A stretch of 64,000 bases of DNA from positions 1-64,000 of the forward strand of contig JAEUUU010000021.1 in the NCBI GenBank assembly GCA_016787345.1. Direction: 5' to 3'. Positions 12,359 through 50,027 of this stretch are shown one piece after another. Made by a program: the position numbers and the translations under genes. The stretch comes from Saprospiraceae bacterium (GTDB lineage Bacteria; Bacteroidota; Bacteroidia; Chitinophagales; Saprospiraceae). Under the pieces are notes generated by a model, which was given only the letters and a program-made list of their open reading frames with translations, searched no databases and was not told the origin of the DNA. Within the stretch, counting starts at the first letter, position 1, and each line of letters opens with the position of its first letter.

Positions 12359-12470
12359 AGGGGTTGATGAGGTTGATGAGGTTGATGAGGTTGATAAAAG
12401 TTTATAGCATTGAGTGTAGAAGCAACCCTTTTTTATAAACTTAATAAACCTCATCAACCCTCATCAACCC
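12359..12470. repeat. Inverted-repeat element with GTTGATGAG tandem arms
   Basis: The left arm contains four tandem copies of the 9-mer GTTGATGAG. The right arm is its complement (AACCTCATCAACCCTCATCAACCC) and ends exactly at the ftsZ stop codon. Between them lies GAAGCAACCCTTTTTTATAAA, a degenerate form of the core shared with other elements of this window. The whole element can fold into a long hairpin in RNA. Confidence 0.8.
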
Positions 12471-13976
12471 TTAATCCACATTATCATGCAGGAACGAGTT
12501 GCCGCCGAAGCGGATCTGCGCCTGTTCGTCGTCGAGAGAAATGGTCCAGTCAGACATGCCGGTTTCCTGGGCGTCGGGCACATCGTCGAGGCGGATGTTG
12601 CGGCGCAGGTAGGCCGGTTGGTTTTCCAGTTCGATGATTGTCTGCGGCGAGTTGAGTTTCACCACATTGAGTTGACGGTTGCGGACTTCTTCGCGGCGGC
12701 GCTGGGCTTCTTCCATACGTTTGCGGCGCTCTTCGGGTGTGAGGTCTTGTTCCTCGCGTTGCACGAAGGGGTCGTGGGCATGGCTATGGCTGCGGCGCAT
12801 TTTGTCCATCGTTTCCCGGATATCATCGAACTCGAATTCGAGTTTGCTGGCGGCCTTCTCCTCCACCGGGGTGAATGCACTGGCGTTGGTATCGGCAGTG
12901 ATGTCAGAAAGAGAAGGCTGGTGCTTTTTTGAAGCGGCCGCGTCGAAATCGTCGAGGTGAACCACGTTGCGGTCGTTTTTCGGTTCCTGGCGCATGGCGG
13001 AGGCCGGTACGCGTTTTTCCGTGGCTTCGAAACCGGTCGCGATGATGGTCACGGCGAGTTTTTCGCCCAGGCGTTCGTCGTAGCAGTTGCCCCAGATCAG
13101 GTTGGTGCCGTTGCCGGCCTCTTCCTGAATGAACTCGGTGATCTCGAAAATTTCGTCCATCGTGGCTTCGCGCATACCCGAGGTAATGTTGACCAGGATA
13201 TTTTTAGCGCCGTAGATGTTGCTGTCTTCGAGCAGCGGCGAGTTGAGCGCTTCGTCGACGGCACGGCGGGCGCGGTTGTCGCCTTCTACGGCGGCGGTGC
13301 CCATGATGGCCACGCCGGAGTCGCGCATGACGGTATTTACGTCTTCGAAGTCGACGTTGACGTAACCCGGCACGGTGATAATCTCGGCGATGCCTTTGGC
13401 AGCCGTGCAGAGGATATTGTCGGCCTGTGCGAATGCCTGCGACATCGTCAGGTTACCGTGGATCTGGCGCAGTTTGTCGTTGGAAATTGCCACGAGGCAA
13501 TCCACGTTTTTACGCAGTTCTTCCACGCCTTCATACCCGTTGGAGACGCGAATGCGGCCTTCAAAGAGGAAGGGCAAAGTGACAATGCCCACGGTCAGGA
13601 TGCCCATTTCACGGGCGGTTTTAGCGATAATGGGTGCTGCGCCGGTGCCGGTGCCGCCGCCCATGCCGGCCGTGATGAAGACCATTTTGGTGCCGTCTTC
13701 CAGAAAGCGCTGGATTTCGTCCAGGCTTTCGATACAGGCCCGTTTGCCCACGTCGGGCTTGGAGCCCGCGCCGCGGCCTTCGGTCAGGTTGGCGCCCAGG
13801 GGAATTTTGGTCCCGACCGGGCTGAGGTTCATTGCCTGGGCATCGGTATTGCAAATGGCGTAATCCACGCCGACGATACCTTGTTTGTACATGTAGGATA
13901 CTGCGTTGGAGCCGCCACCGCCTACACCGATGATTTTTATGATGGAAGGCTCGTCCTTCGGCAAATCGAAAAGCAT
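12471..13976 (-). CDS. ftsZ: Cell division protein FtsZ
   Basis: The tubulin-like GTPase that polymerises into the Z ring and organises septal wall synthesis. The N-terminal IIGVGGGGSNAV and the tubulin signature GGGTGTGAAP (about residues 103-112) form the nucleotide site; a T7 loop NVDFEDVNTVM follows. After about residue 320 comes a long charged linker, then PAYLRR, resembling the FtsA-binding peptide, and about 45 further residues ending FLHDNVD, a tail I associate with Bacteroidota FtsZ. A TTG codon two positions upstream is in frame, but the ATG at 13976 (MLFDLPKD) is the likelier start. It is the last gene of the dcw cluster. Confidence 0.97.
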   Translation of the reverse strand: MLFDLPKDEPSIIKIIGVGGGGSNAVSYMYKQGIVGVDYAICNTDAQAMNLSPVGTKIPLGANLTEGRGAGSKPDVGKRACIESLDEIQRFLEDGTKMVFITAGMGGGTGTGAAPIIAKTAREMGILTVGIVTLPFLFEGRIRVSNGYEGVEELRKNVDCLVAISNDKLRQIHGNLTMSQAFAQADNILCTAAKGIAEIITVPGYVNVDFEDVNTVMRDSGVAIMGTAAVEGDNRARRAVDEALNSPLLEDSNIYGAKNILVNITSGMREATMDEIFEITEFIQEEAGNGTNLIWGNCYDERLGEKLAVTIIATGFEATEKRVPASAMRQEPKNDRNVVHLDDFDAAASKKHQPSLSDITADTNASAFTPVEEKAASKLEFEFDDIRETMDKMRRSHSHAHDPFVQREEQDLTPEERRKRMEEAQRRREEVRNRQLNVVKLNSPQTIIELENQPAYLRRNIRLDDVPDAQETGMSDWTISLDDEQAQIRFGGNSFLHDNVD

Positions 13977-14033
13977 AGCCAAAAAGATTTTGAAATGAAA
14001 ATAAAAGGGTTCCTGCTGATAAGTCGCTGTGTA

Positions 14034-14222
14034 TCAGGAATTCCGGTTGCGCCGGACCTGCATGATCAAACTCCCTGCAAAGAGTACGCCGCCGAGGATC
14101 AGCACCGCTGCACCGGCTAAATTCAGTGCCGGGTTTCGGTTGTCACCTTGTTGCAGCAGACTGTATCCGACAAACATCAGAAACATGCCCGCGATAAAGG
14201 CGTACATCAATCGGGTGCTCAT
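14034..14222 (-). CDS. Two-pass small membrane protein between ftsA and ftsZ
   Basis: A 62-aa protein with two hydrophobic helices (LMYAFIAGMFLMFVGYSLL and AGAAVLILGGVLFAGSLIM) joined by a short polar loop QQGDNRNPALN, ending in a basic RRNRNS tail. Its ATG overlaps the ftsA stop codon (ATGA), so translation is probably coupled to FtsA. The position between ftsA and ftsZ suggests a role at the division site, but that is inference; I know no named homologue. The end lies 57 nt before ftsZ. Confidence 0.75.
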   Translation of the reverse strand: MSTRLMYAFIAGMFLMFVGYSLLQQGDNRNPALNLAGAAVLILGGVLFAGSLIMQVRRNRNS

Positions 14223-15562
14223 TTAGCGCCGATTTTTTTGTCAAAATCGACGTCGGGCTCGGCCTCGAACCATTCCTTCGTTTTCTGGAAGATGTTTTCA
14301 AGCCAGGTAGCCGATTTTTCTTCCGAAACGTTGGAGGGTTCTTTTTCGGTTTTGACCGCGGGTGCGGCTTCAGCCGGCGGTGTTTTACCGGCTTCCACGT
14401 CCTGCAGGCCTTTGAGCAACAGACCGATGCCGGTGCTGAAGATCGGGCTGCTGACGCTTTCCTGATAGCCGTGCGCGAGGCTTTCCACCGGCGCCCCGAC
14501 GCGGCACGACATGCCGGTGTGGTACTCGGTGAGTTTGTCGACGTGCGCCAGCATAGAGCCGCCGCCGGTGAGCACGATACCGCCGATCAGACGGCGCTCG
14601 TAGCCGGAGCGGCGCAGTTCCCAGAGCACGTAGTCGAGGATTTCCTCCATACGGGCCTGGATGATGCGGGCGAGATTTTTCTCGCTGATCTCCTTGTGTT
14701 CGCGGCCTTTGAGACCGGGAATGGTGATGATGCGGTTGTCGAACACCTCGTCGGCCAGTGCCGAACCGAAACGGACTTTCAGTTTTTCCGCCTGCGGCTG
14801 CATCACGGTGCAGCCTTCTTTGATGTCGGCAGTGAGCACATTGCCGCCGAAGGGGATCACGGCCGTGTGGCGGATGATGCCTTCGTGGAAAATGGTGATA
14901 TCGGTGGTGCCGCCGCCGATGTCGACGAGGGCCACGCCGGCTTGTTTTTCTTCTTCGGAGAGCACGGCATCGGCGCTGGCCAGGGGCTCAAGGGTGAGCT
15001 CGGCGACGCGCAGGCCGGCTTTTTCGACGCAGCGATAGAGGTTGTTGATGGCAGTGATCTGGCCGGTGATGATGTGGAAGTTGGCTTCCAGCCGCACACC
15101 GCACATCCCGATCGGGTCGGTGATGCCCTGTTCGCTGTCGACGGTAAATTCCTGCGGGAACACGTGGATGATCTTGTCGCCCGGCGGCAGTACGAGTTTG
15201 TACATGTCGTTGACGATCCGCTCGATGTCGCGGCGGGCAATCTCCGTGTGATCGCTTTCGCGGGTCAGCAAACCGCGATGCTGCAGGCTTTTGATGTGTT
15301 GCCCGGCGATGCCGACGTGGACGGTGTCGAATTTCATACGCGCCTGACGCTCAGCAATTTCCACTGCTTCGCGAATCGCGTTCACCGTTTTTTCGATGTT
15401 GCTGACCACGCCGCGCAATACCCCGACGCTTTCGACCTTACCGACGCCGATAATTTCGAGTTTGCCATGGGAATTCTTTCTGCCGGCCAGACAACACACT
15501 TTGGTCGTGCCAATGTCCAGGGCTACGACCACATCGTGGGATTGATGGACTAATTCGGTCAT
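14219..15562 (-). CDS. ftsA: Cell division protein FtsA
   Basis: The actin-like ATPase that anchors FtsZ filaments to the membrane. It has the phosphate-1 motif VVVALDIGTTKVCCLAG at the N-terminus, VGIAGQHIKSL in the SHS2/1C subdomain, the phosphate-2 loop LVDIGGGTTDITIF and the adenosine motif IVLTGGGSML. The ending FQKTKEWFEAEPDVDFDKKIGAK may hold the membrane-targeting helix. The ATG at 15562 (MTELVHQ) was chosen; an upstream in-frame extension would run back through the promoter. The stop overlaps the next ATG by four bases. Confidence 0.95.
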   Translation of the reverse strand: MTELVHQSHDVVVALDIGTTKVCCLAGRKNSHGKLEIIGVGKVESVGVLRGVVSNIEKTVNAIREAVEIAERQARMKFDTVHVGIAGQHIKSLQHRGLLTRESDHTEIARRDIERIVNDMYKLVLPPGDKIIHVFPQEFTVDSEQGITDPIGMCGVRLEANFHIITGQITAINNLYRCVEKAGLRVAELTLEPLASADAVLSEEEKQAGVALVDIGGGTTDITIFHEGIIRHTAVIPFGGNVLTADIKEGCTVMQPQAEKLKVRFGSALADEVFDNRIITIPGLKGREHKEISEKNLARIIQARMEEILDYVLWELRRSGYERRLIGGIVLTGGGSMLAHVDKLTEYHTGMSCRVGAPVESLAHGYQESVSSPIFSTGIGLLLKGLQDVEAGKTPPAEAAPAVKTEKEPSNVSEEKSATWLENIFQKTKEWFEAEPDVDFDKKIGAK

Positions 15563-15643
15563 AGTTGTCCTAAGTTTAGTGATTTGAGTTTCAGTTCGTT
15601 CTAACTTTTTCTCTGCCGGCAGGCAGAAACTTTTTCCCGCCGA

Positions 15644-15675
15644 CAAAGGTACTTTTTTAAGCTTTTAGCTTCAAA
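15644..15675 (-). promoter_or_regulatory. Internal promoter of ftsA-ftsZ
   Basis: On the minus strand: TTTG at 15675-15672, exactly 20 nt, then TACCTTTG at 15651-15644. Both boxes match the Bacteroidota sigma consensus perfectly. The transcript would have an approximately 75-nt leader carrying the palindrome CTGCCGGCAG. It sits between the four-helix-bundle cassette and ftsA. Confidence 0.7.
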
Positions 15676-15715
15676 TTTTTCAACAATTTATTTTTTTTAA
15701 ACAAACAGCTTCTTT

Positions 15716-16206
15716 AGGTTGATGAGGGTTTATAAGGGTTTATTAGGTTTATAGGGGGGTATCGTATTCGGTATCAGGTTCTTGCAGGGTGGAGAGGCGG
15801 GCTGCCAATTGGTTGATTTGGTAAGTCAGTTTTTCCAGTTCCTGTCTGAGTATGGAAAAATCTCCGTCGGACAAATACTGCAAATCATGACTGATTACCA
15901 ACAGGTTCACCACTTCCACGGCACTACTGAATGCCATACTGTAAAACCGGCTCTGATCCTTGCTACCCACTCTGGCACTTCCTTCGGCAAGATTGCAGCC
16001 TATGGAAATACCGGCCCGTCTTATCTGGCTTGTGATGCCGAACATCTCCTCTTTCGGAAATGCCTTGGTCGCTTGATAAATGAGGAGCGTAATCTTCCTC
16101 GACATTTGCCAAACGGCCATTTTTTCAAACCCATAAGTATACCCCATACTCTATTTTATTTATAAACCCTATAAACCTTATAAACCTTATAAACCTTATA
16201 AACCTA
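15716..16206. repeat. Inverted-repeat element enclosing a four-helix-bundle gene
   Basis: The left arm (15716-15757) consists of GGTTGATGAGGG, then units of GGTTTATAA/TAGG. The right arm (16157-16206) is the complement: five TATAAACCT-type units. The stop codon of the enclosed gene lies within the left arm, its start is about 10 nt from the right arm, and the right arm runs into the ftsQ stop codon. The arm motifs are the same as in the elements at 12.4 and 24.7 kb, which lack a gene. Confidence 0.75.
15749..16147 (-). CDS. Four-helix-bundle protein (23S rRNA intervening-sequence protein family)
   Basis: A 132-aa protein with the family signature: an N-terminal FEKMAVWQMSRKI, then FPKEEMFGITSQIRRAGISIGCNLAEGSAR (second and third helices), FYSMAFSSAVEVVNLL, and a C-terminal helix with LEKLTYQINQLAARL. 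This family (S23/TIGR02436-like) is known from ORFs inside 23S rRNA intervening sequences and from many stand-alone genes of unknown role; it is structurally related to the Avd accessory protein of diversity-generating retroelements. Here it interrupts the dcw cluster and is framed by inverted tandem-repeat arms, so it looks like the cargo of a cassette and not a division gene. Confidence 0.85.
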   Translation of the reverse strand: MGYTYGFEKMAVWQMSRKITLLIYQATKAFPKEEMFGITSQIRRAGISIGCNLAEGSARVGSKDQSRFYSMAFSSAVEVVNLLVISHDLQYLSDGDFSILRQELEKLTYQINQLAARLSTLQEPDTEYDTPL

Positions 16207-16995: not shown

Positions 16996-17009
16996 TTTTG
17001 AATATTGAT

Positions 17010-17561
17010 TTAATTTATCCTGTAATAAGTTATCATAACGGGTTCCTGAGGGATTGCACTCATTCCCACAACAGCGTCGATCATCGGAGTCGGCCGCTTA
17101 TAGGGAATCGGAAGTGAAAGCAGGACCCTGACCGACATGGTCGTTTCATTGATTTCTACAATTTTAAATTTGGTCTTAAAGGGCGTTGTATACCCATCCG
17201 GTTCTAATGCGGGTCCAGCAGTGACGGCTTTTCCCGCGGGATTACTTTTCGCGGTTTGGGAAAACCACATACTAAGTGTGTCGGAGATCAGCGCATACCG
17301 ACCGAAATACTCGGTAACTATGCCATTTCTGTGTACCAGACTATCGTTTTTATTGGAGCAGGTGACGTTTTCCTGGTTAAAAAACAGAAAGTGCCCCTGC
17401 CAGCGTTCCAATCCGACCATACCGGTTGTGTCCACTTGATTTCCGAAGCCGCAAAACGCCCATTTCTGTCCATTCAGAGATGGGACAGACGTCTGGGCCA
17501 TCAGAAGGGCCGTCTGGATAACCATACAGCAAACCGTTAGTATTATTACTTTTCGTTTCAT
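17010..17561 (-). CDS. Exported protein of unknown function embedded in the dcw cluster
   Basis: A 183-aa protein with a signal peptide (IILTVCCMVIQTALLMAQT). The mature part starts with LNGQKWAFCGFGNQVDTTGMVGLERWQGHFLFF and continues as a beta-rich chain with two Cys (FCGF, VTCSN) that could pair. I recognise no domain. Its ATG overlaps the murC stop (ATGA), and ftsQ starts 14 nt after it, so it is firmly inside the operon. A periplasmic role near septal wall synthesis is possible, but unproven. Confidence 0.65.
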   Translation of the reverse strand: MKRKVIILTVCCMVIQTALLMAQTSVPSLNGQKWAFCGFGNQVDTTGMVGLERWQGHFLFFNQENVTCSNKNDSLVHRNGIVTEYFGRYALISDTLSMWFSQTAKSNPAGKAVTAGPALEPDGYTTPFKTKFKIVEINETTMSVRVLLSLPIPYKRPTPMIDAVVGMSAIPQEPVMITYYRIN

Positions 17562-19084
17562 TGGTCAAGTTTATTGTTGAGCCAGTCCCTGATGAGGGGA
17601 ACAAAAGCGTCGATATCACCGGCCCCCATCGTCAGCAACACCTGCAAGTCTTTGTTTTTCAAAACATTCAGCAGGTCTTTCTTTTCGACGAGGAATTTTT
17701 CCCCTAAGCTCATTTTATCCAAAATGGTTCCCGAAGTAATACCCGGAATCGGTTCTTCCCGGGCGGGATAAATCGGGAGCAGCAGGCATTCGTCCAGCCC
17801 GTCGAGCGCAAGGGCGAAGCCCTCGGCAAAGTCGCGGGTGCGGGTGAACAGGTGGGGCTGAAACACGCCCGTGATCTTCCGGCCCGGAAACAACATCCGC
17901 GCTGCCGCGATGGTCGCTTCCAGTTCGGCCGGGTGGTGCGCATAGTCGTCCACATACACGAGATCGGGTCTGCGAACATGGTACTCAAACCGCCGGTGCA
18001 CCCCTGCGAAACTGTCGAGCCCCTCCGCCAAAGTCTCTGCAGGCACGCCGGCCAGCAAAGCCGCCGCAGCAGCCGCCGTAGCGTTGAGGATATTGTGTCG
18101 GCCCGGGTAGCGGAGGGTGAGGGCGATTTGGTTTTCGGCTTTGCGATTAACTAAGCTTCCAACACCTCCTGAGGGGGCCCCACCCCCAACCCCTCCCCCC
18201 GGGGGGAGGGGAGCCGATCCGAGCTCATGGCCGCTCCCCTCCCCGGAGGGGGAGGGGTTTGGGGTGGGGCCTGAGGAAGAAAAGCCCATATTCCCCACAA
18301 ACTCAAACACCATCCTACCCTCTTCCACCCGCAGGTTTCTTGCCTGAAAATCGCCTTCCTCGATACCGAAAGTGTACACTTTGCGGCCGGAGGAACGCAA
18401 ATCGCCGGCAAGGTCGTCGAGCGGGAGGCCGTGGCGATAAATCAGGGCGCCGCCGGGTTTGATCTGGCGGGCAAACTGCTCGTAGGCTTCCACCACCGCT
18501 TCCGGGGTGCCGTAGATGTCGAGGTGATCGGGGTCGATCGAGTTGAGGATGGCAATCTCGGGGTACAGATGGTGAAAACTGCGGTCGTATTCGTCGGCTT
18601 CGGCGACGACCCAGTCAGACTGGCCCTCGACGAAGTTGTTGTTCAGATTGAGCGAAATACCGCCCAGAAACGCCGTGGCGTCGATGCCGCCGCTGCGCAA
18701 CAGGTGGGCGACCATGGTACTGGTGGTGGTTTTGCCGTGCGTGCCGGCTACGGCCACCGTGCGAAGGTTGCGGCTGATGAGCCCGAGCACCTGGGCGCGT
18801 TTCATCATCGGGATGCCGCTTTCTCGGAACCAGCTCAGTTCGCGGTGCTCGGCCGGCACAGCGGGCGTCCAGACCAGCAGGTCGACGCCGGCGGGTATGC
18901 GGGCCGGATCGTCGTCGTAATGCACAGGAATGCCTTCGCTCGCCAGCGCGCGAGTCAGATCGGTTTCGGTGCGGTCGTAACCCGACACGGCGATGCCGCG
19001 GCCGTGGAAAAAACGGGCCAGGGCCGACATGCCGATGCCGCCGATACCGATGAAATAGAGCCGATGGAGATGATCGAAGGTCAT
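17558..19084 (-). CDS. murC: UDP-N-acetylmuramate--L-alanine ligase MurC, with an in-frame repeat insertion
   Basis: ATP-dependent addition of L-Ala to UDP-MurNAc, the first stem-peptide step in the cytoplasm. Motifs: the Rossmann start FIGIGGIGMSALARF, the P-loop VAGTHGKTTTSTMVAHLL, AEADEYDRSF, and the C-terminal YVDDYAHHPAEL and GVFQPHLFTRTRDF. At 508 aa it is about 45 residues longer than usual. The excess lies near residues 265-310 and is a low-complexity Pro/Gly/Ser stretch (GPTPNPSPSGEG, PLPPGGGVGGG) encoded by a GC-rich palindrome. The reading frame is kept, so the enzyme is probably functional with a surface loop between the central and C-terminal parts. Confidence 0.95.
   Translation of the reverse strand: MTFDHLHRLYFIGIGGIGMSALARFFHGRGIAVSGYDRTETDLTRALASEGIPVHYDDDPARIPAGVDLLVWTPAVPAEHRELSWFRESGIPMMKRAQVLGLISRNLRTVAVAGTHGKTTTSTMVAHLLRSGGIDATAFLGGISLNLNNNFVEGQSDWVVAEADEYDRSFHHLYPEIAILNSIDPDHLDIYGTPEAVVEAYEQFARQIKPGGALIYRHGLPLDDLAGDLRSSGRKVYTFGIEEGDFQARNLRVEEGRMVFEFVGNMGFSSSGPTPNPSPSGEGSGHELGSAPLPPGGGVGGGAPSGGVGSLVNRKAENQIALTLRYPGRHNILNATAAAAAALLAGVPAETLAEGLDSFAGVHRRFEYHVRRPDLVYVDDYAHHPAELEATIAAARMLFPGRKITGVFQPHLFTRTRDFAEGFALALDGLDECLLLPIYPAREEPIPGITSGTILDKMSLGEKFLVEKKDLLNVLKNKDLQVLLTMGAGDIDAFVPLIRDWLNNKLDQ
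18176..18271. repeat. GC-rich palindromic repeat inside murC
   Basis: Two 39-nt arms (18176-18214 and 18233-18271) match as inverted repeats at 35 of 39 positions, with an 18-nt loop. The arms are runs of C4-5 and G4-5 beginning GGCCCCACCCC. It is translated as Pro/Gly/Ser-rich sequence within MurC. Confidence 0.85.
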
Positions 19085-19091
19085 GTAATAA

Positions 19092-19466: not shown

Positions 19467-19471
19467 ATTTT

Positions 19472-24499: not shown

Positions 24500-24790
24500 G
24501 TATTTATTGATTCGATTGGGTCGATTGATTCGATTGATCTCTTAAAATTGGCTGCGGGGCAATTTTGCATCGCCCCTGCAACCGGCTGTTCAAAATAATA
24601 GTCCCTCCACTATTATGTCTTTGTTTTTTAGGTTGATGAGGGTTGATAAAGGGGTTTATAAGGTTATAAGGTTATAAGGTTATAAGGTTTATGAAGTTGA
24701 TTTGGGAGCATCCACCCTCCTTTTTATAAACCTTATCAACCTTTATCAACCTTTATCAACCTTTATCAACCTTTATCAACCCTTATAAAC
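24500..24790. repeat. Composite repeat region between mraY and murE
   Basis: First (24505-24540) comes a degenerate GATTGATTC array, then a small hairpin around GGGGCAATTTTGCATCGCCCC. From 24631 an inverted-repeat element begins: the left arm GGTTGATGAGGG, then four GTTATAAG units; the middle GGGAGCATCCACCCTCC resembles the shared core; the right arm (24721-24790) has five CTTTATCAAC units. The right arm extends over the murE stop codon into its last codons. Confidence 0.8.
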
Positions 24791-26247
24791 CATTTTTCCA
24801 GCATTTCCCGGTCGTCAAAGGGGTGTTTGACGCCGTTGATGTCCTGATATTTTTCGTGTCCTTTACCGGCGACGAGTATGATATCGCCCGGGCCGGCGAG
24901 GCGGACAGCGGTTTTAATGGCTTGTTCGCGGTTTTCAATGGTCAGTGTTTTTTTCAGGTCTTCGGGTGTCAGGCCGGCCTCCATATCGCGGAGAATGGCT
25001 TGCGGGTCTTCGGTGCGCGGGTTGTCGCTGGTGAGGATAGCCTGGTCGCTCATGCGGGCGGCCACCTGTGCCATGACGGGCCTTTTGGTTTTATCGCGAT
25101 CGCCGCCACAACCGAGCACGGTAATGACTTTGCTGCCGCGTTTTTTGAGTTTCTGGATGGTTTCGAGCACTTTTTCCACGGCGTCGGGGGTATGGGCGTA
25201 GTCGACGATTCCAATACAGCCCGCTTTTTCAGGGTGTACCACGTAATCGAAGCGTCCTTCGGCGCCGCGCAGGTCGCTGAGTACAGTGAGTGTCGCCTGT
25301 TTGTCTATTCCCAACTGCTGTGCGACCCCGTACACCGCCAGCAGGTTGTAGGCATTGAATTCGCCGATCAGGCGGGCATGAAAGTCCTCGTCGTCGAGAC
25401 GGAGATGCAGGCCGCTCAGGGCGTTTTCAATGATCTTGGCTTTATACACCGACGGCGTTTTGAGGCCATAGGTCAAGGTGCGGGCACGTGTATTTTGCAA
25501 CATAAACTTGCCGTTGCGGTCGTCGGCATTGGTCAGGGCAAAGGCTTCGGCCGGCAAATCGTCGAACAATTGCTTCTTGGCGTCGCGATAAGCGGCGAAA
25601 GTGCCGTGGTAGTCGAGGTGATCGTGGGTCAGATTGGTAAACACCGCCCCGGCAAACCTCGCCCCGGCGATCCGCCGCTGATGAATGGCATGGCTGCTGG
25701 TTTCCATAAACACGTATTCGCAACCGGCATCGGCCATTTGCCGCAATAGCGCCTGCAGGCGGACGGCATCCGGGGTAGTATGTGTGCTGGGCGTGATCTG
25801 TTCTCCGATCCGGTTTTCCACTGTACCGATCAATCCGCAGCGGTACCCCAAACGGGTGAAACACTGCCAAAGCAGGGTGGTCACCGTGGTTTTGCCGTTG
25901 GTTCCCGTGACGGCAACGAGGGTCAATTGCTCCGAAGGCCGGCCATAAAAATTGGCGGCGACCCGGCCCAGCGCCTCGGCGGAATCCGCGACGCGCAGGA
26001 AGGTTGCCGGCTGACGGGTATCGGCAAGCGGGTTCTGATACAGAACAGCCGCCGCGCCTTTTTCGAGCGCCATCGGGATATAATCATGCCCGTCGGCCCC
26101 GGCTCCCTGCACCGCCACGAACAGATCGCCGGCTTGTACCTGACGGCTGTCGAAACGGATCGCATTGATCGCAACCGTACGCGGGTCGGGACCAGTCGAT
26201 TCCAGGATTTCTATGCTGGAAAGTATGTCAAAGAGCGTTTTAGGCAT
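24766..26247 (-). CDS. murE: UDP-MurNAc-L-Ala-D-Glu--meso-diaminopimelate ligase MurE
   Basis: A cytoplasmic ligase of 493 aa that adds the third stem residue. It has the N-terminal UDP-sugar domain with FDSRQVQAGDLFVAVQG, the P-loop VAVTGTNGKTTVTTLLW, TNLTHDHLDYHG and, decisive for substrate, LTSDNPRTEDP: the DNPR motif marks meso-diaminopimelate as the added amino acid. The C-terminus ending DREMLEKWFIRVDKG is unusual: the last seven residues (FIRVDKG) are encoded by the arm of the neighbouring tandem repeat, so the native tail was replaced or extended by repeat growth. ftsI lies 6 nt upstream. Confidence 0.96.
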   Translation of the reverse strand: MPKTLFDILSSIEILESTGPDPRTVAINAIRFDSRQVQAGDLFVAVQGAGADGHDYIPMALEKGAAAVLYQNPLADTRQPATFLRVADSAEALGRVAANFYGRPSEQLTLVAVTGTNGKTTVTTLLWQCFTRLGYRCGLIGTVENRIGEQITPSTHTTPDAVRLQALLRQMADAGCEYVFMETSSHAIHQRRIAGARFAGAVFTNLTHDHLDYHGTFAAYRDAKKQLFDDLPAEAFALTNADDRNGKFMLQNTRARTLTYGLKTPSVYKAKIIENALSGLHLRLDDEDFHARLIGEFNAYNLLAVYGVAQQLGIDKQATLTVLSDLRGAEGRFDYVVHPEKAGCIGIVDYAHTPDAVEKVLETIQKLKKRGSKVITVLGCGGDRDKTKRPVMAQVAARMSDQAILTSDNPRTEDPQAILRDMEAGLTPEDLKKTLTIENREQAIKTAVRLAGPGDIILVAGKGHEKYQDINGVKHPFDDREMLEKWFIRVDKG

Positions 26248-28392: not shown

Positions 28393-28404
28393 GGCTGGAC
28401 AGAT

Positions 28405-28581
28405 ATTCGGTTATTTGGTTATTTGGTTATTTGGTTATTTGGTTATTTGGTTATTTGGTTATGCGGTTATGCGGTGAATTGGTTATGCGGTGAATAGATT
28501 AAATCGAGAGCAGCAACAACCCTTTTATTAACCACCTCACCAATTCACCGCATAACCAAACAACTAATTCACCGCATAACC
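28405..28581. repeat. Inverted-repeat element with GGTTATTT/GGTTATGCGG arms
   Basis: The left arm (28409-28496) holds about six TTATTTGG units, then GGTTATGCGG and GGTGAAT units. The core GAGAGCAGCAACAACCC is at 28506-28522. The right arm (28527-28581) is the complement (CACCGCATAACC twice) and ends one base before the ftsL stop codon. It fills the ftsI-ftsL gap. Confidence 0.85.
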
Positions 28582-30717: not shown

Positions 30718-30856
30718 TTGAATTTTACCTTAGAAAAATCTAAAAAACGCTACAAACAATCGAGCAAACAACTGTCGTGCATTAATAAGGGGAAAAAGTG
30801 GGAACAAGCGCAGGGAGAATTACCGGTGGTGGTAAAAAGTGGCGGCGGAATCCTTT

Positions 30857-31165
30857 TTTATTTGCGATATCCGATTAGTTCGATTTCCGATTTGCGATTG
30901 GATTGATGATTTTTGATTTAATAACAATCGGAAATCCTGATTCTAAAATCCAATCGCAAATCGGAAATCGAACTAATCGGATATCGGAAATAAAAACAGG
31001 AGTCGCCCCGATCATTCGGAACGACTCCTGTCGTCGTAATCTGTTCAACTCACGGCTTCCGGTCCGTTTGATGTTTTTTGATTTAAACAATCGGAAATCC
31101 TGATGCTAAAATCCAATCGCAAATCGCCAATCGAACTAATCGGATATCGCAAATAAATACAGGAG
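30857..31165. repeat. Inverted and direct repeats of a GATTTGCGATT-rich unit
   Basis: The left arm 30860-30904 and right arm 30948-30993 are near-perfect complements (units such as CCGATTAGTTCGATTTCC). A second direct copy of the right side (about 78 nt, 30925-31002) recurs at 31088-31165, offset by 163 nt with few mismatches. The block fills the space up to the stop codon of the large T9SS gene. The rest of the 680-nt gap is AT-rich and holds the mraZ promoter. Confidence 0.85.
30996..31031 (-). terminator. Terminator downstream of the FG-GAP/SprB protein gene
   Basis: Stem ACAGGAGTCG / CGACTCCTGT with an inner CCG/CGG pair; on the minus strand it is followed by TTTTTA. It lies between the two direct repeats. 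Confidence 0.6.
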
Positions 31166-35871: not shown

Positions 35872-36073
35872 GCGCTGTAGCGCCGCCTGTAGCGCCGACC
35901 TGTAGCGCCGACCTCCAGGTCGGCGACGTTGAGGGCAATAAAAAACCGCGATTATCAGCCAATGATCCGGGCGTCATTAAGCAGTATTCATCCGGAGCAA
36001 TAGCGGATAATCGCGGGTTATTTCTGCGCTCAACGTCGCCGACCTGGAGGTCGGCGCTACAGCGGCGCTACAG
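35872..36073. repeat. Inverted-repeat element with TGTAGCGCCGACC arms
   Basis: The left arm (35872-35956) holds three degenerate TGTAGCGCCG units, a CCGACCTCCAGGTCGG palindrome, CAACGT in reverse, then CCGCGATTATC. The right arm (36003-36073) repeats these in inverse order and ends exactly before the SQR stop codon. The 45-nt centre has no recognisable feature. Confidence 0.85.
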
Positions 36074-39926: not shown

Positions 39927-40796
39927 ATGCTTTGGCCGACCCTGCGCAACAAGCTTTCACAACCCTACCCGATGCACGACGAAACCCGCTGGAACTGGCG
40001 GATGGCACTGGGCAGCGGTTTGTTCGTCCTGCTGTTTTTGTTTATCCTGCAACCCTTCGGCAGCCGCGTACCCGCTGGCAAGGAGTGGTTTTATTTGCGG
40101 ATTTGTGCAGAATACGGCCTCATCACTTCGGTTGTGACTTTGGCATGGGGGCCATTGCAGGCATTTTTTCCTCATTTTTTCAAAGAAGAAAAATGGCAGG
40201 TTTGGAAAGAAATCGTCACGACCCTGCTGTTTGTCAGCGTGATTGCCACGGCAAATATGCTGTACGCCGTCGTGCGGTTTGTCCAACCTTTGAACTGGCA
40301 GACTTTTGCGTACTGGCAATTCGTCACCTGGGCAGTGGGGATATTTCCAACCTTGTACGGCGTGCTGCGCAAACAGGTTCAACTGATGCAACGCTACGCA
40401 GCCGAAGCGGCCGACCTGACCCGTCAACTGCATCCGTCGCCGCCCCACCCTGCCGAGCCGGCGCTTTTGCTGAACGGTGAAAATCAGGGCGAATCCCTGC
40501 AGATCCACCCCGACGACCTGCTCTGTCTGGCAGCGGCCGACAATTACGTTCAGGTTTTTTACCGCGAAAACGGGACCACCCGCCAGCGTCTCCTACGCGG
40601 CGCCCTGCGGCGTTTTGAGGCGGCGCTGGCTCCTTATCCGCGCTTTTTTCGCTGCCACCGCACCTATGTCGTCAACCTCGACCGGGTAATTCGCATCAGC
40701 GGCAACGCCCAGGGCTACAAACTCCACCTCGATGGCCTCGAACAACCCGTCCCGGTATCGCGAGCCCTGAATGATGAAATCCGGAAAAGGTTTTAG
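39927..40796 (+). CDS. Membrane-bound LytTR-family transcriptional regulator
   Basis: A 289-aa protein with four hydrophobic helices in the N-terminal half (FVLLFLFILQPFG, YGLITSVVTLAWGPL, IVTTLLFVSVIATANML, FVTWAVGIFPTLYGVL) and a C-terminal LytTR DNA-binding domain from about residue 190 (LCLAAADNYVQVFY, FFRCHRTYVVNLDRV, LDGLEQPVPVSRAL). Such membrane-anchored LytTR proteins lack a receiver domain and are common in Bacteroidota; the sensed signal is unknown. The stop codon lies within the arm of the repeat element that follows. Confidence 0.85.
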   Translation: MLWPTLRNKLSQPYPMHDETRWNWRMALGSGLFVLLFLFILQPFGSRVPAGKEWFYLRICAEYGLITSVVTLAWGPLQAFFPHFFKEEKWQVWKEIVTTLLFVSVIATANMLYAVVRFVQPLNWQTFAYWQFVTWAVGIFPTLYGVLRKQVQLMQRYAAEAADLTRQLHPSPPHPAEPALLLNGENQGESLQIHPDDLLCLAAADNYVQVFYRENGTTRQRLLRGALRRFEAALAPYPRFFRCHRTYVVNLDRVIRISGNAQGYKLHLDGLEQPVPVSRALNDEIRKRF

Positions 40797-41093
40797 GTTT
40801 TAGGTTTTAGTTTTTGGGTTTTGGCAAAAGGGTTGTTGCTGCTCTCGGGGCGGGTTTTGGGTGTTGGGAGTTGGGTTTTGGCAAAAGGGTTGTTCCTGCT
40901 CTCGGGGCGGGTTTTGGGTGTTGGGGTTTGGCAAAAGGGTTGTTTCTGCTCTCGGATAGCGCTTCGGATTTGGGAAGTAATGATCCGCTGCTCGCGCGAG
41001 GCTTTGCCTCGTGACACTTTCCGAGAGCAGCAACAACCCTTTTGCCAAAACCCAAAACCCAACACCTAAAACCCCAAAACCCTGCAACTCACC
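40790..41093. repeat. Large inverted-repeat element with three plus one core copies
   Basis: The left side has GGTTTTAG units, then three tandem blocks of AAAAGGGTTGTTGCTGCTCTCGG (split: GGGTTGTTGCTGCTCTC) at 40826, 40883 and 40933. The right side carries one inverse copy (GAGAGCAGCAACAACCC, 41023-41039) followed by CAAAACCCAAAACCC units. A small hairpin CGAGGC-TTT-GCCTCG lies in the loop. The element starts at the LytTR stop codon. The remaining 41094-41184 holds nothing I recognise. Confidence 0.85.
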
Positions 41094-41953: not shown

Positions 41954-41989
41954 CGGCGCAAAACAGCGGCCCCCAGCGGCCCATTTCCA

Positions 41990-43823: not shown

Positions 43824-43854
43824 GTGTCGCTATTTCATTTATCAACACCATTTT

Positions 43855-44628: not shown

Positions 44629-44653
44629 AGCCCTTTCGACAATCAAATCAACC

Positions 44654-45175
44654 ATGCGTCCTGTCTTCCTGATAATGATGGCCCTTTGGGCAATGCCGCT
44701 GACCGCCCAGAAAATGCTGCTCCTCGAACGCGCCAACCGGGCCAAAACCACTAAAATGTACATCGGCGACGAGCTGCACTTTCGCCTTGCCGGTCAGGAA
44801 GACTATTGGTACAAACGCACCATCACCGATATCCTTCCGGAGTCGAATATCCTCTTGCTCGACAATTTTCCGGTCAAACTCGACAGTATAGTCGCCATCC
44901 GCGTGCATCGCCGGCCCGTTTGGCGACTGCTGGGCGGTACGGCGTTTACCTTCGGCGCCAGCCTGGCCGTGGCGACCACCGCCGGCGCGTTGTTCAACGA
45001 CAAAGACGTGCAATACGGCCCCCTCTACGCCACCTCGGCGGGGTCGTTGGGACTGGGCACCTTTTTGTTCAGCAAAAGAAAACTCCGACTGGGCAAAAAG
45101 CACCGCCTGCGCATCATTGAAATCGATTTCGGGCCGCCGCTCATTCCGCCGCCGCCTGGTAAAAGCGGAAATTAG
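44654..45175 (+). CDS. Hypothetical exported/membrane protein
   Basis: A 173-aa protein with a signal peptide (FLIMMALWAMPLTAQK), a beta-rich domain (KTTKMYIGDELHFRLAGQED to LLLDNFPVKLDSIVAIRVHRR), then two hydrophobic segments (LGGTAFTFGASLAVATTAGAL, YATSAGSLGLGTFLF) and a basic tail. The pattern is like many small Bacteroidota proteins of unknown function. It starts 25 nt after the DUF3298-like gene and is probably co-transcribed with it. Confidence 0.65.
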   Translation: MRPVFLIMMALWAMPLTAQKMLLLERANRAKTTKMYIGDELHFRLAGQEDYWYKRTITDILPESNILLLDNFPVKLDSIVAIRVHRRPVWRLLGGTAFTFGASLAVATTAGALFNDKDVQYGPLYATSAGSLGLGTFLFSKRKLRLGKKHRLRIIEIDFGPPLIPPPPGKSGN

Positions 45176-45185
45176 CCGGTCCCCG

Positions 45186-46361: not shown

Positions 46362-46406
46362 AGTTGGCGGGCTGGTTTGAAAAGAGGCGCGAAAGTAGCG
46401 CATGTT

Positions 46407-46781
46407 TCAAGCCGGCACGAAACGAATGGACAAGGAATTGACGCAGTGGCGCACATTTTTTTTCGTCATGCGCTCTCCCTCGAATACATGGCCCAAATGC
46501 CCGCCGCAATTGGCGCAAATGATCTCGACCCGTTTCATACCGAACGTATGATCGGGCTTGCGCACGACGGCGCCCGGCAATTCGTCGTCGAAGGAAGGCC
46601 AGCCGCAGCCCGAATCGAATTTGTCGGACGACTGATACAAGGGGGCGTTGCAGCGCCGGCAGATGTAGGTACCCGCCGCTTTGTGGTTCCAGTATTCGCC
46701 GGTAAAAGCCCGTTCCGTGCCTTTTTGGGCAATGACGTACTCCTCGTCGGGCGTAAGCGAATTCCAGTCAGGATGTTCCAT
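46407..46781 (-). CDS. msrB: Peptide-methionine (R)-S-oxide reductase MsrB
   Basis: A 124-aa repair enzyme that reduces the R form of methionine sulfoxide. Two CxxC pairs (CRRC and CANC) bind structural zinc; [10 protein letters not shown] and [14 protein letters not shown] are signature sequences; and the catalytic Cys is in [11 protein letters not shown] (near 112). A second candidate Cys for the resolving step is in SGCGWP. No signal peptide, so it acts in the cytoplasm. It is not fused to MsrA. Confidence 0.96.
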
Positions 46782-46882
46782 ATCGTGTCTGATTTTTTAT
46801 CAATAAACAGACGAAGATGAATCGGGTTTATGGTAGGTGCGCCTGGTCGGTCGCTGCGATGTCACAAAATCTGAATACCCTT

Positions 46883-46914
46883 TTTGCCAGTTTACACAAA
46901 TTCGGCTAATTTTC
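46883..46914 (+). promoter_or_regulatory. Promoter of the redoxin-dockerin T9SS gene
   Basis: TTTG (46883-46886), exactly 20 nt, then TAATTTTC (46907-46914), one mismatch from TAnnTTTG. It leaves a 41-nt leader before the ATG. Confidence 0.6.
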
Positions 46915-46955
46915 GGAGCAAATAGCGGCATTTCGCCGCCCAAACACCGATACTT

Positions 46956-48629
46956 ATGAGAAAACTCTTACTCCTGTCCCTGCTTTTCACAGGCCTGCGC
47001 CTCGCCGCTTTACCGGCGCCCGATTTCGATCTTACCGACTCCGACGGCAACCAGCATGCCCTTTACGGCGACTACGTCAGTCAGGGGAAACTCGTCGTAA
47101 TCGAAATCTTTTTTGTCAACTGCCCGCCTTGCGCTACGCATGCGCCGCATTTCCAGACGCTTTACACGTCCAAAAAAGCGCTGTATCCGGGCAAGGTGGA
47201 ATTTATGCTGCTGACCATTATGAATGGCGACCACGACCCCCAGGTGGCGCAATACAAAATCAATAAAAACATGACCATGCCGGCCGTCAGTTCCGACGGG
47301 GGCAGCCTGCAGGCCGTAGCGCCCTACCAGTCGGGCACGTACGGGGCTTTTCTTGGCACCCCCACGTTTGTGGTCATTGCGCCCAATTCCGGCGAAGTAT
47401 TTTTCGACGTCAGGGGCAGCTCGGCCCAATCAACCATGGGCAAATTGTCGCAATTGATCGACCACCTGCTCGTGCCGGCCGGACCGATCAACATGTGCGG
47501 CAGCGCTACCCCGACCGGCGCACCCGTCGACAGCGTGCGCTACACCGTGGAAGCCCCCGACTGGGATACTACGTTCTGGAGCGGCGACTACAATCTCTGG
47601 AACTTCCCCGAGCTGCAAATCACACAACCCTATCTGATTACGCCCTATAAAAATGACCACCACGACGCCGGCATCAGCACTTTCGACCTGGTTCTGATGT
47701 CCAAACACATCCTGGGTATCACGCCCTTTGATGCCAGTTGGAAAACCACTGCCGCCGACGTCAATATCTCCGGCTCCGTCACTACTTTTGATATTGTTGA
47801 AACCCGGAAGCTGCTGCTTGGCGTCTACGACACCTTTCCGTTTTGTCCCTCCTGGCGCTTCGTACCCACCAATGGCACCGAGGTCAACGGTTACTGTTTC
47901 CCCTTTCAAAGTATCAAAATGGGCGATGTAAACGGCTCCTATACCGCTTCCGGCAACGCCGCGCCGGCCGAGCGCAGTGGCCGTCCCATCACACTGAATG
48001 TCGCCGATCCTTTACTGGAAGCCGGCACAGTATACGACCTGAACCTTTCCCTCCGCGAAGCAATGCGCTGGGACGGCGTACAACTTTCGCTTGGCTTCGA
48101 TCCGGCGTTGGTCGAACTTGAAGCGCTTGAGTCCGGCGCCCTGGACGGATTCGGACGCGAAGATTTTCACTTGCGCCCCGAAGGCGTACTGACCCTCAGC
48201 TGGACCGGCAACGGCCAGGCCTCGGCCATTCCTGCCGGTAGGCCCTGGCTGACCATTCGGATACGCGCCCTGCAGGCCCTGCGTTTGTCGGACGCGCTGC
48301 GCCTGACGGAGCGTCCTTTGCGGGCAGAAGCGTACGACCCGGAAGGGACGGTCCGGCCGTTGGACTGGCGCTGGGAGCGCCCGGAAGACTTCTGCCGTGT
48401 GAACCCCAACCCTGCCAGCGAGCGTTTTGCCCTTGAATTTTATCAGGAGACAGCCGGACGGGTATTGATCCAGTTGATCGACGGGCGGGGCCGAATCGCT
48501 TATACACAGCACGATTTTTTTGAAAACGGCCGGCAGCACGTGGTGATTCCCTGCGCCGACCTGCCTCCGGGCCTGTATCAGGTGGCCTTGAACGGCCGAC
48601 CGGCAGCCAAGGTTTTATTGCGCCGATGA
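46956..48629 (+). CDS. Thioredoxin-like/dockerin/cohesin-like fusion protein with T9SS type A sorting domain
   Basis: A 557-aa exported protein. After the signal peptide comes a thioredoxin-fold redoxin domain (PDFDLTDSDGNQHALYGDY, redox motif CPPC at about 56-59, cis-Pro region GTPTFVVIAP). Next is a pair of dockerin-type segments (ISTFDLVLMSKHILGI near 235; ADVNISGSVTTFDIVETRKLLLG near 267, split in reading), each with an F-D-x-V..K/R-x-x-L pattern. A cohesin-like beta sandwich follows (about 345-475: VYDLNLSLREAMRWDGVQLSL, FDPALVELEALES), and a type A sorting domain ends the chain (VNPNPASERFAL to LPPGLYQVAL). A surface-exposed disulfide- or thiol-active protein is likely; partner unknown. 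Confidence 0.8.
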   Translation: MRKLLLLSLLFTGLRLAALPAPDFDLTDSDGNQHALYGDYVSQGKLVVIEIFFVNCPPCATHAPHFQTLYTSKKALYPGKVEFMLLTIMNGDHDPQVAQYKINKNMTMPAVSSDGGSLQAVAPYQSGTYGAFLGTPTFVVIAPNSGEVFFDVRGSSAQSTMGKLSQLIDHLLVPAGPINMCGSATPTGAPVDSVRYTVEAPDWDTTFWSGDYNLWNFPELQITQPYLITPYKNDHHDAGISTFDLVLMSKHILGITPFDASWKTTAADVNISGSVTTFDIVETRKLLLGVYDTFPFCPSWRFVPTNGTEVNGYCFPFQSIKMGDVNGSYTASGNAAPAERSGRPITLNVADPLLEAGTVYDLNLSLREAMRWDGVQLSLGFDPALVELEALESGALDGFGREDFHLRPEGVLTLSWTGNGQASAIPAGRPWLTIRIRALQALRLSDALRLTERPLRAEAYDPEGTVRPLDWRWERPEDFCRVNPNPASERFALEFYQETAGRVLIQLIDGRGRIAYTQHDFFENGRQHVVIPCADLPPGLYQVALNGRPAAKVLLRR

Positions 48630-48652
48630 TGACAATTCGGCGAGCATGAACC

Positions 48653-48660
48653 TAACTTTG
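48653..48660 (+). promoter_or_regulatory. -7 box before the GT2 gene
   Basis: TAACTTTG, a perfect TAnnTTTG, ends 6 nt before the ATG at 48667. It lies inside the frame opened by the alternative ATG at 48646 and so favours the later start. Confidence 0.5.
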
Positions 48661-48666
48661 CCGCCG

Positions 48667-49866
48667 ATGCTGCTCGTCGCTCAAATTCTCTTCTGGGGCA
48701 GTGTGCTGGCCTTGGCACACAGCTACGTTTTTTACCCCTTGCTGATGAAATGGCTGGCAAAAGGTAAAAGACCGAATGAACTCGTCTTTGACAAAGACGA
48801 CGCGCAGCTGCCGTCAGTGAGCATCCTGATGTCGGTGTACAACGAGGAAAAAGTGATCGCGGAGAAACTCGACAGCCTGTTGCAACTTGATTACCCAGCC
48901 GGCAAACTGCAGATTTACATCGGCTCCGATTGTTCGGACGACGCCACCAACCAATTGGTGGCGCAGGCGGCCGGCAGGAGTGATCATCTACACTTTTACC
49001 CGTTTGCCCAACGGCGCGGCAAACCCCCGGTCATCAATGAACTGGCCGAATATGCCCTGAAACGCAGTCCGGCCAGCCCCGGCCATGTTTTCGTCCTGAC
49101 CGATGCCAGTGTGATGCTGCGCGCCGATACACTGTATCATCTGGTGCGGCACTACCGCAACCCGGCCATCGGCGTCGTGGATGCGCACATGCGCAGCGTC
49201 GGGCTCAGGGGGGAAGGCATCAGCCGCAGCGAAGACCGCTACCTGAGCGGAGAAGTGCAGCTCAAATACCGTGAAGGCCTTGTGTGGGGACAAATGATCG
49301 GGCCGTTCGGCGGGTGTTATGCCCTGCGATCCGATTTGTTTGAGCCGGTGCCGCCCAACTCGCTGGTCGATGATTTCTGGCTGGTTTTTCGCGTGCTGGA
49401 AAAAGGTTTTCAGGCGATCAACGACCTCGATGCCGTCTGTTACGAAGGCGCGACACACCGGGTGCGCGACGAGTTTCGGCGCAAAAAGCGCATAGCAGCC
49501 GGCAGTTTTCAAAATCTGGCGCGTTTCAGGCGCTGGGTATTGCCGCCGATGAGCACGCTGGGATTTGCCTTTTTTTCACATAAAGTACTGCGCTGGTTCG
49601 GCGGCTTTCTGATCCTCCTGAGCTGGCTGGCCTGCGCTTGCCTGGCCATCGACATGGCATTCTACCGCTGGCTGCTCTTGCTGATGACCGCCGGTCTGGC
49701 AGGTATCCCCCTGCTCGACTGGCTGCTCTCCCGGCTTCGTTTCACATTTTTACCGGTAAAAAACCTCGCTTATTTCCTCGCCATGAATGCCGCCCTGATC
49801 GCCGGTTTTTTCAAGTGGCAAAAGGGCATCCGGGAAAATACCTGGCAACGTACAACGAGATATTGA
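48667..49866 (+). CDS. Family 2 glycosyltransferase, membrane-anchored
   Basis: A 399-aa GT-A enzyme with one N-terminal membrane helix (ILFWGSVLALAHSYVFY), the catalytic domain VSILMSVYNEEKVIAEKL to YIGSDCSDDATN to VLTDASVMLR (DxD-like) and GEVQLKYREGLVWGQMIGPFGG, then a D-D-F-W motif (LVDDFWLVFRVLEKG), and three C-terminal helices. The layout is that of processive or lipid-linked GT2 enzymes (cellulose synthase/hyaluronan-type fold) used for polysaccharide or glycolipid synthesis. The sugar is unknown. An upstream ATG at 48646 is possible. Confidence 0.85.
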   Translation: MLLVAQILFWGSVLALAHSYVFYPLLMKWLAKGKRPNELVFDKDDAQLPSVSILMSVYNEEKVIAEKLDSLLQLDYPAGKLQIYIGSDCSDDATNQLVAQAAGRSDHLHFYPFAQRRGKPPVINELAEYALKRSPASPGHVFVLTDASVMLRADTLYHLVRHYRNPAIGVVDAHMRSVGLRGEGISRSEDRYLSGEVQLKYREGLVWGQMIGPFGGCYALRSDLFEPVPPNSLVDDFWLVFRVLEKGFQAINDLDAVCYEGATHRVRDEFRRKKRIAAGSFQNLARFRRWVLPPMSTLGFAFFSHKVLRWFGGFLILLSWLACACLAIDMAFYRWLLLLMTAGLAGIPLLDWLLSRLRFTFLPVKNLAYFLAMNAALIAGFFKWQKGIRENTWQRTTRY

Positions 49867-50027
49867 ATTTGAGGATTTGAGGATGCGAGGATGCGAGGAT
49901 TTGACAAAAGTGGTACTACCGCTCACTAAAACAATACTTATAAAGGAACATTGTCTGTTATCGAGGGCAGCAATGCCCCTTTTGTCAAATCCTCGCATCA
50001 TCGAATCCTCAAATCCTCGAATCCTCC
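49867..50027. repeat. Inverted-repeat element with GAGGATTT/GAGGATGC arms
   Basis: The left arm (49867-49910) starts directly after the GT2 stop codon with GAGGATTTGAGGATGC units and TTGACAAAAG. The right arm (49976-50027) is the complement and ends directly before the ATG of the next gene. Both arm ends carry core-like sequences facing each other: GAGGGCAGCAATGCCCC on the right and, on the minus strand, GAGCGGTAGTACCAC on the left. Confidence 0.85.

Follow-up and report, generated by a model that had tools for sequence, protein, structure and literature searches.

Word-armed hairpins of the window

The window analysed here is a 64,000-nucleotide stretch of DNA from a Saprospiraceae bacterium (contig JAEUUU010000021.1, positions 1 to 64,000), part of contig 113 in a draft genome of 5,281,146 bases. 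Between its genes lie hairpins whose arms are tandem arrays of short words on one side and reverse complements of such words on the other, and in one of them the arms enclose an open reading frame (ORF) for a protein of the IVP/S23 family. An earlier inspection of the letters alone, here called the sequence-only reading, had described five of these hairpins (starting at 12359, 24631, 28405, 40790 and 49867) as intergenic elements with variable arms and a shared core, GAGAGCAGCAACAACCC. We compared them with other sequence of the same genome, with a sister species represented by the Saprospiraceae metagenome-assembled genome (MAG) SJ871, and with genomes of the family and phylum. The elements concerned are as follows.

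12362..12472, unstranded: gene-less hairpin of GGTTGATGA-type words with a decayed-looking core GAAGCAACCC at 12419-12428 before the T-tract; touches an ORF (12471-13982, minus strand) at its TAA stop
15717..16205, minus strand: gene-bearing hairpin, inverted arms of GGTTTATAAG-type words enclosing the IVP/S23 ORF 15749-16147 (minus strand)
24631..24791, unstranded: gene-less hairpin of GGTTnATnAn / TTATAAGG words with a sister core GGGAGCATCCACCCTCCTTTT at 24704; arms shorter in SJ871
28404..28581, unstranded: gene-less hairpin of GGTKAnnn words with a single exact core at 28506-28522; touches a TAA stop; an arm differs from that in SJ871 by 32 bp, which is four 8-bp words
30855..31157, unstranded: coreless word-armed inverted repeats of GATTTGCGATT type words; reduced in SJ871 to a short palindrome made of the outer words
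35875..36073, unstranded: type-b REP doublet forming hairpins (REPIN; REP, repetitive extragenic palindrome), GTAG + CGCCGACCT..AGGTCGGCG, with a core variant inside that has a GCGATTA side in place of the T-tract; common to SJ871; the same family flanks the REP-associated tyrosine transposase (RAYT) gene at locus L103
40788..41082, unstranded: array hairpin of NNTTGGG words with three left core modules at 40830, 40887 and 40937 (all minus strand) and one core on the right at 41023-41039 (plus strand); the loop carries a CGAGGC..GCCTCG hairpin
49867..50027, unstranded: gene-less hairpin of GAGGATnn words with the core variant GAGGGCAGCAATGCCCC at 49963; begins where an ORF ends (TGA stop, 49866)

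Each of the five hairpins first described has both tandem words and inverted repeats, and the sequence at each site bears out the arms and core forms reported for it. The core was said to occur twice exactly, which it does at 28506 (plus strand) and 41023 (plus strand); a third exact copy, not listed at the time, lies at 40830 as the reverse complement. The idea of one core at all five sites holds for 28405, 40790 and 49867. The loose form GGGAGCATCCACCC at 24704 belongs to a sister core, GAGAGCATCCACCCTCCTTTT, that also occurs at loci L092 and L096 and at L236 of SJ871, and the loose form at 12419 looks decayed, no core within 3 mismatches having been counted in that gap.

IVP genes between inverted word arms

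The ORF inside the hairpin at 15717-16205 encodes a four-helix-bundle protein (TIGR02436, E 8.1e-29, and a PF05635 match), and the words of its arms are of the same kind as those of the 12359 and 24631 elements. In SJ871 the element is absent as a whole, arms included, and the site reads TTAGCTACCG. Thus, arms and gene are present or absent together.

The genome contains eight PF05635 matches, six of which lie between inverted word arms drawn from five vocabularies, with inverted-repeat scores of 21-48 against shuffle maxima of 10-12.5. The remaining two (L172 and L173) adjoin, by eye, reverse-transcriptase-like ORFs, have no significant inverted flanks and look like Avd genes of diversity-generating retroelements (DGRs); L172 also has an FGE-like ORF resembling a variable-repeat target. 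Two loci of this genome carry PDDEXK_3 genes, one enclosed by word arms (L175) and the other not (L174).

The flank test on which we rely, the last of several versions that differ in their flank limits, asks jointly for inverted flanks that exceed all 100 shuffles and for tandem words at the 0-1/100 level on at least one side. All six IVP genes of this genome passed (the two Avd genes next to reverse transcriptases were left out), as did 15 of 21 loci from the family (8 further short loci were skipped) and 13 of 30 from the phylum, the last being the best-scoring matches returned rather than a random draw; among 204 similarly sized control genes taken from five genomes, one passed. An ORF-bounded version of the test was passed by 5/8 IVP loci of this genome, 12/30 of the phylum and 2/95 of this genome's control genes, and an earlier version applied to the family loci by 14/21. 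Locus L171 failed the ORF-bounded test and passed both the shuffle comparison and the joint test. A mispaired-flank control, in which 12/30 mispaired loci scored at least 20 as against 6/30 true ones, was dropped because related genomes share flanking genes, and shuffles and control genes were used instead. PF05635 matches, Avd-like ones included, are present in 75 of the 99 phylum genomes sampled.

SJ871 has five PF05635 matches. At L236 the IVP gene has three modules of the sister core GAGAGCATCCACCCTCC on its left and three on its right (five exact, one with 2 mismatches) inside arms of NNTTGGG words, and this locus is a hairpin of the GGGAGCATCCACCC form with a gene in its loop. At L235 the IVP gene is preceded by an arm of GGTGA words and by AAAAGGGTTGTTGCTGATCTC, which is 1 mismatch from the main core. 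The latter locus is orthologous to L166 of our genome, with the same flanking sequences at 94-96% identity, but at L166 the arms are of GAGGAT words and the IVP gene gives no blastn match to that of L235. Arms and gene therefore differ together at one site.

A core found in two sister species

With at most 2 mismatches, the core occurs in 157 copies genome-wide (76 + 81), compared with 3 for the reversed pattern. We also counted copies in a sample of 806,023 bp of this genome, made up of the window and 40 further stretches (about 15% of the genome), where up to 3 mismatches gave 94 copies against 2 for the reversed control and up to 4 gave 168 against 33. These counts exclude a chance origin and confirm the expectation that the core is commoner in the genome than chance would make it. 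Because the 40 stretches came from core-carrying contigs, densities in this sample are not unbiased.

A search with the exact degenerate form GAGAGCAGNAAYAACCCTTTT against 84,980 species genomes, which may omit records of our own genome or one very near it, found 31 stretches, 30 in SJ871 and one in Brenneria that we take as chance. In a family sample of 150 genomes, our own included, 67 contain matches within 2 mismatches. Those outside our own genome were also taken as chance, because they number 0-4 per strand and the reversed control gives 0-3. Stray matches aside, the core is confined to the two sister species in the genomes searched.

Word gain and loss, loop inversion and coupling of the arms

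The SJ871 stretches are syntenic with our genome, mostly at 91-97% identity. Alignment was tried at 11 core sites, 8 of which aligned (L088, L099 and L080 gave no anchor and are uncounted), and seven further sites of the window were aligned to SJ871. The arms differ mostly by one or more whole words, each 7 or 8 bp long; some indels have other lengths, and the number of core modules varies as well: L007 has five left modules and SJ871 two. The cores show single changes. SJ871 also has the hairpins at 12359, 24631 and 28405, apart from small changes or word losses, and the loop at 40790 is identical there, those of L073 and L027 nearly so. This agrees with the earlier description of fast-changing, self-complementary arms around a conserved centre. 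A further difference, 486 bp at 17055-17542 that lie inside an ORF and are missing from SJ871, was set aside like other gene-length differences.

At two loci the SJ871 loop is inverted relative to its flanks. For L062/L112, 68 of 85 alignment columns are identical when the loop is inverted and 52 of 98 when it is not; for L019/L129 the corresponding values are 66 of 69 and 39 of 84.

The two halves of an element are coupled. In 18 NNTTGGG elements, arm complementarity is 27.7 within an element and 21.7 between elements (permutation p 0.0002), the element's own partner arm being the best match in 5 of the 18, and left and right cores differ by 16 mismatches where 27.8 are expected (p 0.0004). 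The five GAGGAT elements show arm coupling at p 0.04. The arms of one element are thus more complementary to each other than arms of different elements that use the same word, the covariation that the sequence-only reading had proposed to look for. That reading also supposed that arms are regenerated locally. The coupling is what re-copying across the hairpin would give, and selection for pairing would give it too, so that it fits both alike.

Arm vocabularies with and without the core

Word vocabularies also exist apart from the core. Three GAGGATKY words, allowing at most 1 mismatch, occur in 8 of the 150 family genomes (our own included), each in another genus, with 357 overlapping matches in our genome and 92, 53, 24, 14, 12, 4 and 1 in the others; the two congeners sampled have none. 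In one of these genera (L332 on G061:C40) GAGGAT-type words enclose an IVP gene. The L332 word arm, which separates the IVP gene from the following gene, is open in frame and reads as a repeat of the peptide SNPQILES; some proteins in annotations may therefore include translated arms of elements. Another genome (G024) has a gene-less hairpin made of GAGGAT words; its inner stem, AAAAGGGTAACTTCTGCCCTC, is core-like by eye and differs from the core at more than 4 positions. The reversed control for these words matched 15 times in G026, possibly reflecting a TAGGAG-type vocabulary.

Six GAGGAT-word genomes, our own among them, have 8, 8, 8, 2, 8 and 9 IVP matches, compared with a median of 3 in 94 others (Mann-Whitney p 0.002 over 100 genomes, a test that ignores relatedness and genome size). 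Moreover, GAGGAT words and GGTTnATnAn words each occur both with an IVP gene (L166, L167) and gene-less. Gene-less copies therefore share their ends with a gene-bearing element, as is the case for miniature inverted-repeat transposable elements (MITEs).

Word-armed inverted repeats number 36 per Mb in our genome, 15 in G183, 2 in G213, 0 in G153 and 2 in G155, and IVP matches number 14 in G183 and 11 in G213, with none in G153 or G155; the one word-armed inverted repeat of IVP-free G155 is apparently coding. These densities support a link to IVP genes weakly, because G213 goes against it. A stricter periodicity test (10 elements in our genome, 5 in G183 and 1 each in G213, G153 and G155, some of them plain palindromes) was replaced because it missed most elements of our genome that have variable words.

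If the core were the mobile or functional unit and arms were made anew around it at each copy by template slippage, as the sequence-only reading had it, several vocabularies would be expected to share one core, as they do, and both the whole-word indels and the left/right coupling would follow. Coreless arms are common, however: 46 of 74 intergenic gaps with an inverted repeat hold no core within 3 mismatches, some of these repeats being ordinary terminators or REPINs. In addition, the same words recur at many loci, in other genera and around IVP genes. The arms are not tied to the core, and we consider a core-centred origin very improbable.

Other repeats were seen beside these vocabularies. 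Arms of CACGCAAAG / CGCAGAG words, which are probably common in other phyla, occur at L073 15897, L087 1538, L092 11036 and L096 8138. A C-rich palindrome, CCCCAACCCCTCC..GGAGGGG, lies at 18176-18271 of the window and at 15827-16189 of L095, and is once nested within arms of GATTGATTC words.

Location behind genes and terminator-like features

The elements lie behind genes. Using calls from a crude gene caller and an inverted-repeat score of at least 25, a cut-off at which counts include ordinary terminators and REPINs, we found inverted repeats in 30 of the 55 convergent gaps, 41 of the 228 tandem ones and 3 of the 99 divergent ones; cores were present in 16, 19 and none of them, respectively. 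The element starts at most 6 nt from the upstream stop codon in 19 of the 71 non-divergent gaps with an inverted repeat, and at most 15 nt from it in 36. In two convergent gaps (L062 and L072) the element extends nearly from stop to stop, which makes it an obvious candidate for the terminator there.

The RNA folds of two elements are far more stable than those of shuffled sequences (z -20.0 and -11.4). The window has no Rfam match at gathering score. A T-tract following a stem behind genes is a terminator trait that these elements have; a short loop is one that they lack. The earlier claim that the hairpins do not fit ordinary terminators may or may not hold: the loops measure 29-295 nt in 26 innermost left/right core pairs (only pairs less than 450 nt apart were taken), yet an A-tract and a T-tract flank the core as in a bidirectional terminator.

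Host-made bidirectional terminators or stabilizers of mRNA 3′ ends, with arms that grow by slippage, pairing that is kept by selection and nothing mobile, would account for the 3′ location and the lack of cores in all 99 divergent gaps, for the AAAA-stem-TTTT layout, for the covariation of left and right cores and for the very stable folds. Such structures would not be expected to have one core and one set of vocabularies recurring at scores of loci, nor would their words be patchy across genera, as the GAGGAT words are, to the point of missing from two sampled congeners. The loops are also long for an intrinsic terminator, and the arms appear or vanish along with an IVP gene (15717) or change together with it (L235/L166). 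We regard this explanation as unlikely.

Two settings of the core

The 94 core copies found with up to 3 mismatches fall into two settings. In type a (69 copies) the core is followed by a T-tract, defined as at least 3 T in the next 5 nt, and in type b (20 copies) by a GCGATTA-like sequence; 5 copies have neither and, all being inside ORF calls, are probably chance, although 10 of the 89 typed copies are inside crude ORF calls too. The typical type-a layout is AAAA - GGGTTGTTGCTGCTCTC - loop - GAGAGCAGCAACAACCC - TTTT with word arms outside; several modules on one side are frequent, and some copies are one-sided. Hairpins of the form GTAG-C-GCCGACCT..AGGTCGGC adjoin the type-b cores, whose orientation with respect to the hairpin is the reverse of that in type a. 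The REP half-stem AGGTCGGCG lies at most 60 nt upstream in 20/20 type-b copies, with GTAG..CCGACCT there in 12/20, and the remaining 8/20 follow a hairpin of opposite orientation. Core positions 9 and 12, and less so 11 and 14, vary in both types, for which reason the two sets of cores are presumably related.

Our genome has four matches to PF01797, the RAYT family. The one at L103 (C151) has type-b elements with core variants on both sides, which identifies type b as a REPIN family. Repeats with ACATACGTTAAGCCGCGATGCGGC palindromes at 62591-62877 of the window belong to a family that adjoins a second RAYT gene (L101, C137), and a third RAYT gene, just right of the window (L104, C113:65568), has flanking CGAGGC..GCCTCG hairpins. 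Hairpins like the latter recur in the loops of many type-a elements, so the repeats are nested.

On this evidence the core might belong to the interior of GTAG REPINs that RAYT, a Y1 HUH transposase, mobilizes, with the same enzyme acting in trans on the word-armed hairpins. The RAYT gene flanked on both sides by type-b elements, the regular REP half-stem upstream of the GCGATTA-like copies and the core positions variable in types a and b alike all favour this. The word-armed hairpins, however, have by eye neither a constant GTAG foot nor a constant terminal hairpin. Inspection, again by eye, of the 1.5 kb to each side of the four RAYT matches showed no word-armed core hairpin, though a coreless hairpin of TAATGTGC words lies near position 2787 of L102, about 0.9 kb from the fourth RAYT gene. 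Together with the opposite core directions of the two types, this leaves transposition by RAYT a distinctly unlikely account of the word-armed hairpins. The earlier statement that the elements do not fit REP sequences is accordingly right for the word-armed hairpins and wrong for the 20 of 94 core copies that adjoin REP hairpins, which flank a RAYT gene as well.

A proposed family of mobile palindromic elements

We propose, with a probability of roughly 0.6, that the hairpins are a family of small mobile palindromic elements behind genes and that the five first described are gene-less derivatives of an IVP-bearing form, to which they would stand as MITEs stand to a transposon. Such elements would insert downstream of genes, in many cases directly at the stop codon. 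A full element would consist of tandem 7-10-bp words on the left, AAAA and an inner stem, a loop, the inner stem again with TTTT, and the reverse-complement words; in some lineages the inner stem is the core. Where a gene is carried, the loop would hold one four-helix-bundle IVP/S23 gene (PF05635, TIGR02436) or perhaps also, as in one case, a PDDEXK_3/GxxExxY gene. The host would tolerate the elements because the folded transcript hairpin ends or shields the upstream mRNA. The AAAA-stem/stem-TTTT layout of the inner part suggests that a terminator renders insertion harmless, and the A-tract/core/core/T-tract unit probably acts in both directions. The arms would drift by whole-word slippage while copying across the hairpin keeps them complementary, and the loop would flip through recombination between the arms. 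From these sequence comparisons we infer both the direction from gene-bearing to gene-less and mobility by insertion rather than loss.

A number of observations weigh against this proposal. The six intergenic IVP loci of our own genome (L166-L171) have no core within 3 mismatches, and the cases that combine gene and core are 2 of the 5 PF05635 matches in SJ871 only, so that the link between core hairpins and IVP genes rests on two SJ871 loci and on shared arm vocabularies. The joint flank test was failed by 17/30 phylum and 6/21 family loci, perhaps, at many of the phylum loci, owing to decay. G213 combines 11 IVP matches with a single word-armed inverted repeat in 0.4 Mb, and the reversed GAGGAT control matched 5 other genomes, up to 15 times. 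The core is not always accompanied by inverse arms, as the sequence-only reading would have it, because 7 of 35 core-bearing gaps are without an inverted repeat scoring at least 25. Core coupling in the five GAGGAT elements is not significant (p 0.19), and 20 of 94 core copies stand in a REPIN setting that the proposal leaves unexplained. The one clean empty site compared, that of 15717-16205, has no clear target-site duplication and could be a deletion, with no outgroup to polarize the direction. Finally, the gene caller is crude and the genome a draft, and the rate at which core loci are present in SJ871 is biased because most were chosen for having the core.

Comparison with known systems

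Degenerate heptamer arrays lie between genes in cyanobacteria, as short tandemly repeated repetitive sequences (STRRs) and small dispersed repeats, and resemble the word arms described here; G-rich heptamers in Xanthomonas and Nostoc reportedly form such arrays too. To our knowledge, neither kind has mirrored arms or a gene-bearing form. Among the matching open-access papers that were listed, at the level of titles and the beginnings of abstracts (subscription journals being outside the scope), we found no account of intergenic IVP hairpins or of mirrored word arms.

A close parallel is the intervening sequence (IVS) of Coxiella 23S rRNA, described as a selfish element that has an S23/IVP ORF in a hairpin loop, inverted repeats at its ends and tandem heptamers in numbers that vary from strain to strain (PMC4990558). 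That IVS is located in helix 45 of the 23S rRNA gene, and RNase III excises it (PMC4990558). Long-stem terminal inverted repeats are present in the elements studied here, and an IVP gene in the loop in the gene-bearing ones (window 15749-16147 and SJ871 L235 and L236), whereas the five elements first described are without a gene. Unlike the rRNA IVS, the present elements lie behind protein genes, have arms of words and exist in many gene-less copies.

REPs and REPINs with their RAYT genes (PMC3733652) are likewise palindromic, intergenic and located behind genes, and type b, which is of the GTAG kind and flanks a RAYT gene, conforms to them; the word-armed hairpins differ in having no GTAG foot and no constant terminal hairpin. 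The BrickBuilt MITE of Porphyromonas gingivalis is similarly intergenic, species-limited and built with internal tandem repeats, but its repeats are 23 nt long and form a single array whose inverted ends are small, in contrast to mirrored arms of 7-10-bp words, and its description names no IVP gene (PMC4596501). For the DGR accessory protein Avd, homology with PF05635 has been suggested (PMC10053308). Two of the eight PF05635 matches in our genome agree with this in adjoining reverse-transcriptase-like ORFs, and these two (L172, L173) are without significant inverted flanks, whereas the other six IVP genes are word-armed.

The resemblance of PF05635 to Avd makes a reverse transcriptase partner thinkable. 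The elements might then be phylum-wide minimal retro-hairpins: the IVP protein would bind the hairpin RNA and deliver it to a reverse transcriptase that acts in trans, the mirrored word arrays would arise through slippage and fold-back while the RNA is reverse-transcribed, and the copy would enter just behind stop codons, 23S rRNA IVSs being copies that landed in rRNA genes. We offer this as a quite improbable extension.

If the proposal of mobile IVP-bearing elements is correct, it would give PF05635, a common protein family of unknown role, a likely mobile context, and word-repeat arrays, intergenic palindromes and rRNA intervening sequences would prove to be elements of a single kind. Our genome and SJ871 would form a sister pair in which arm drift, loop inversion and the exchange of elements can be watched. 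Repeat arrays beside stop codons may, more generally, be the arms of such elements, sometimes in frame with the gene.

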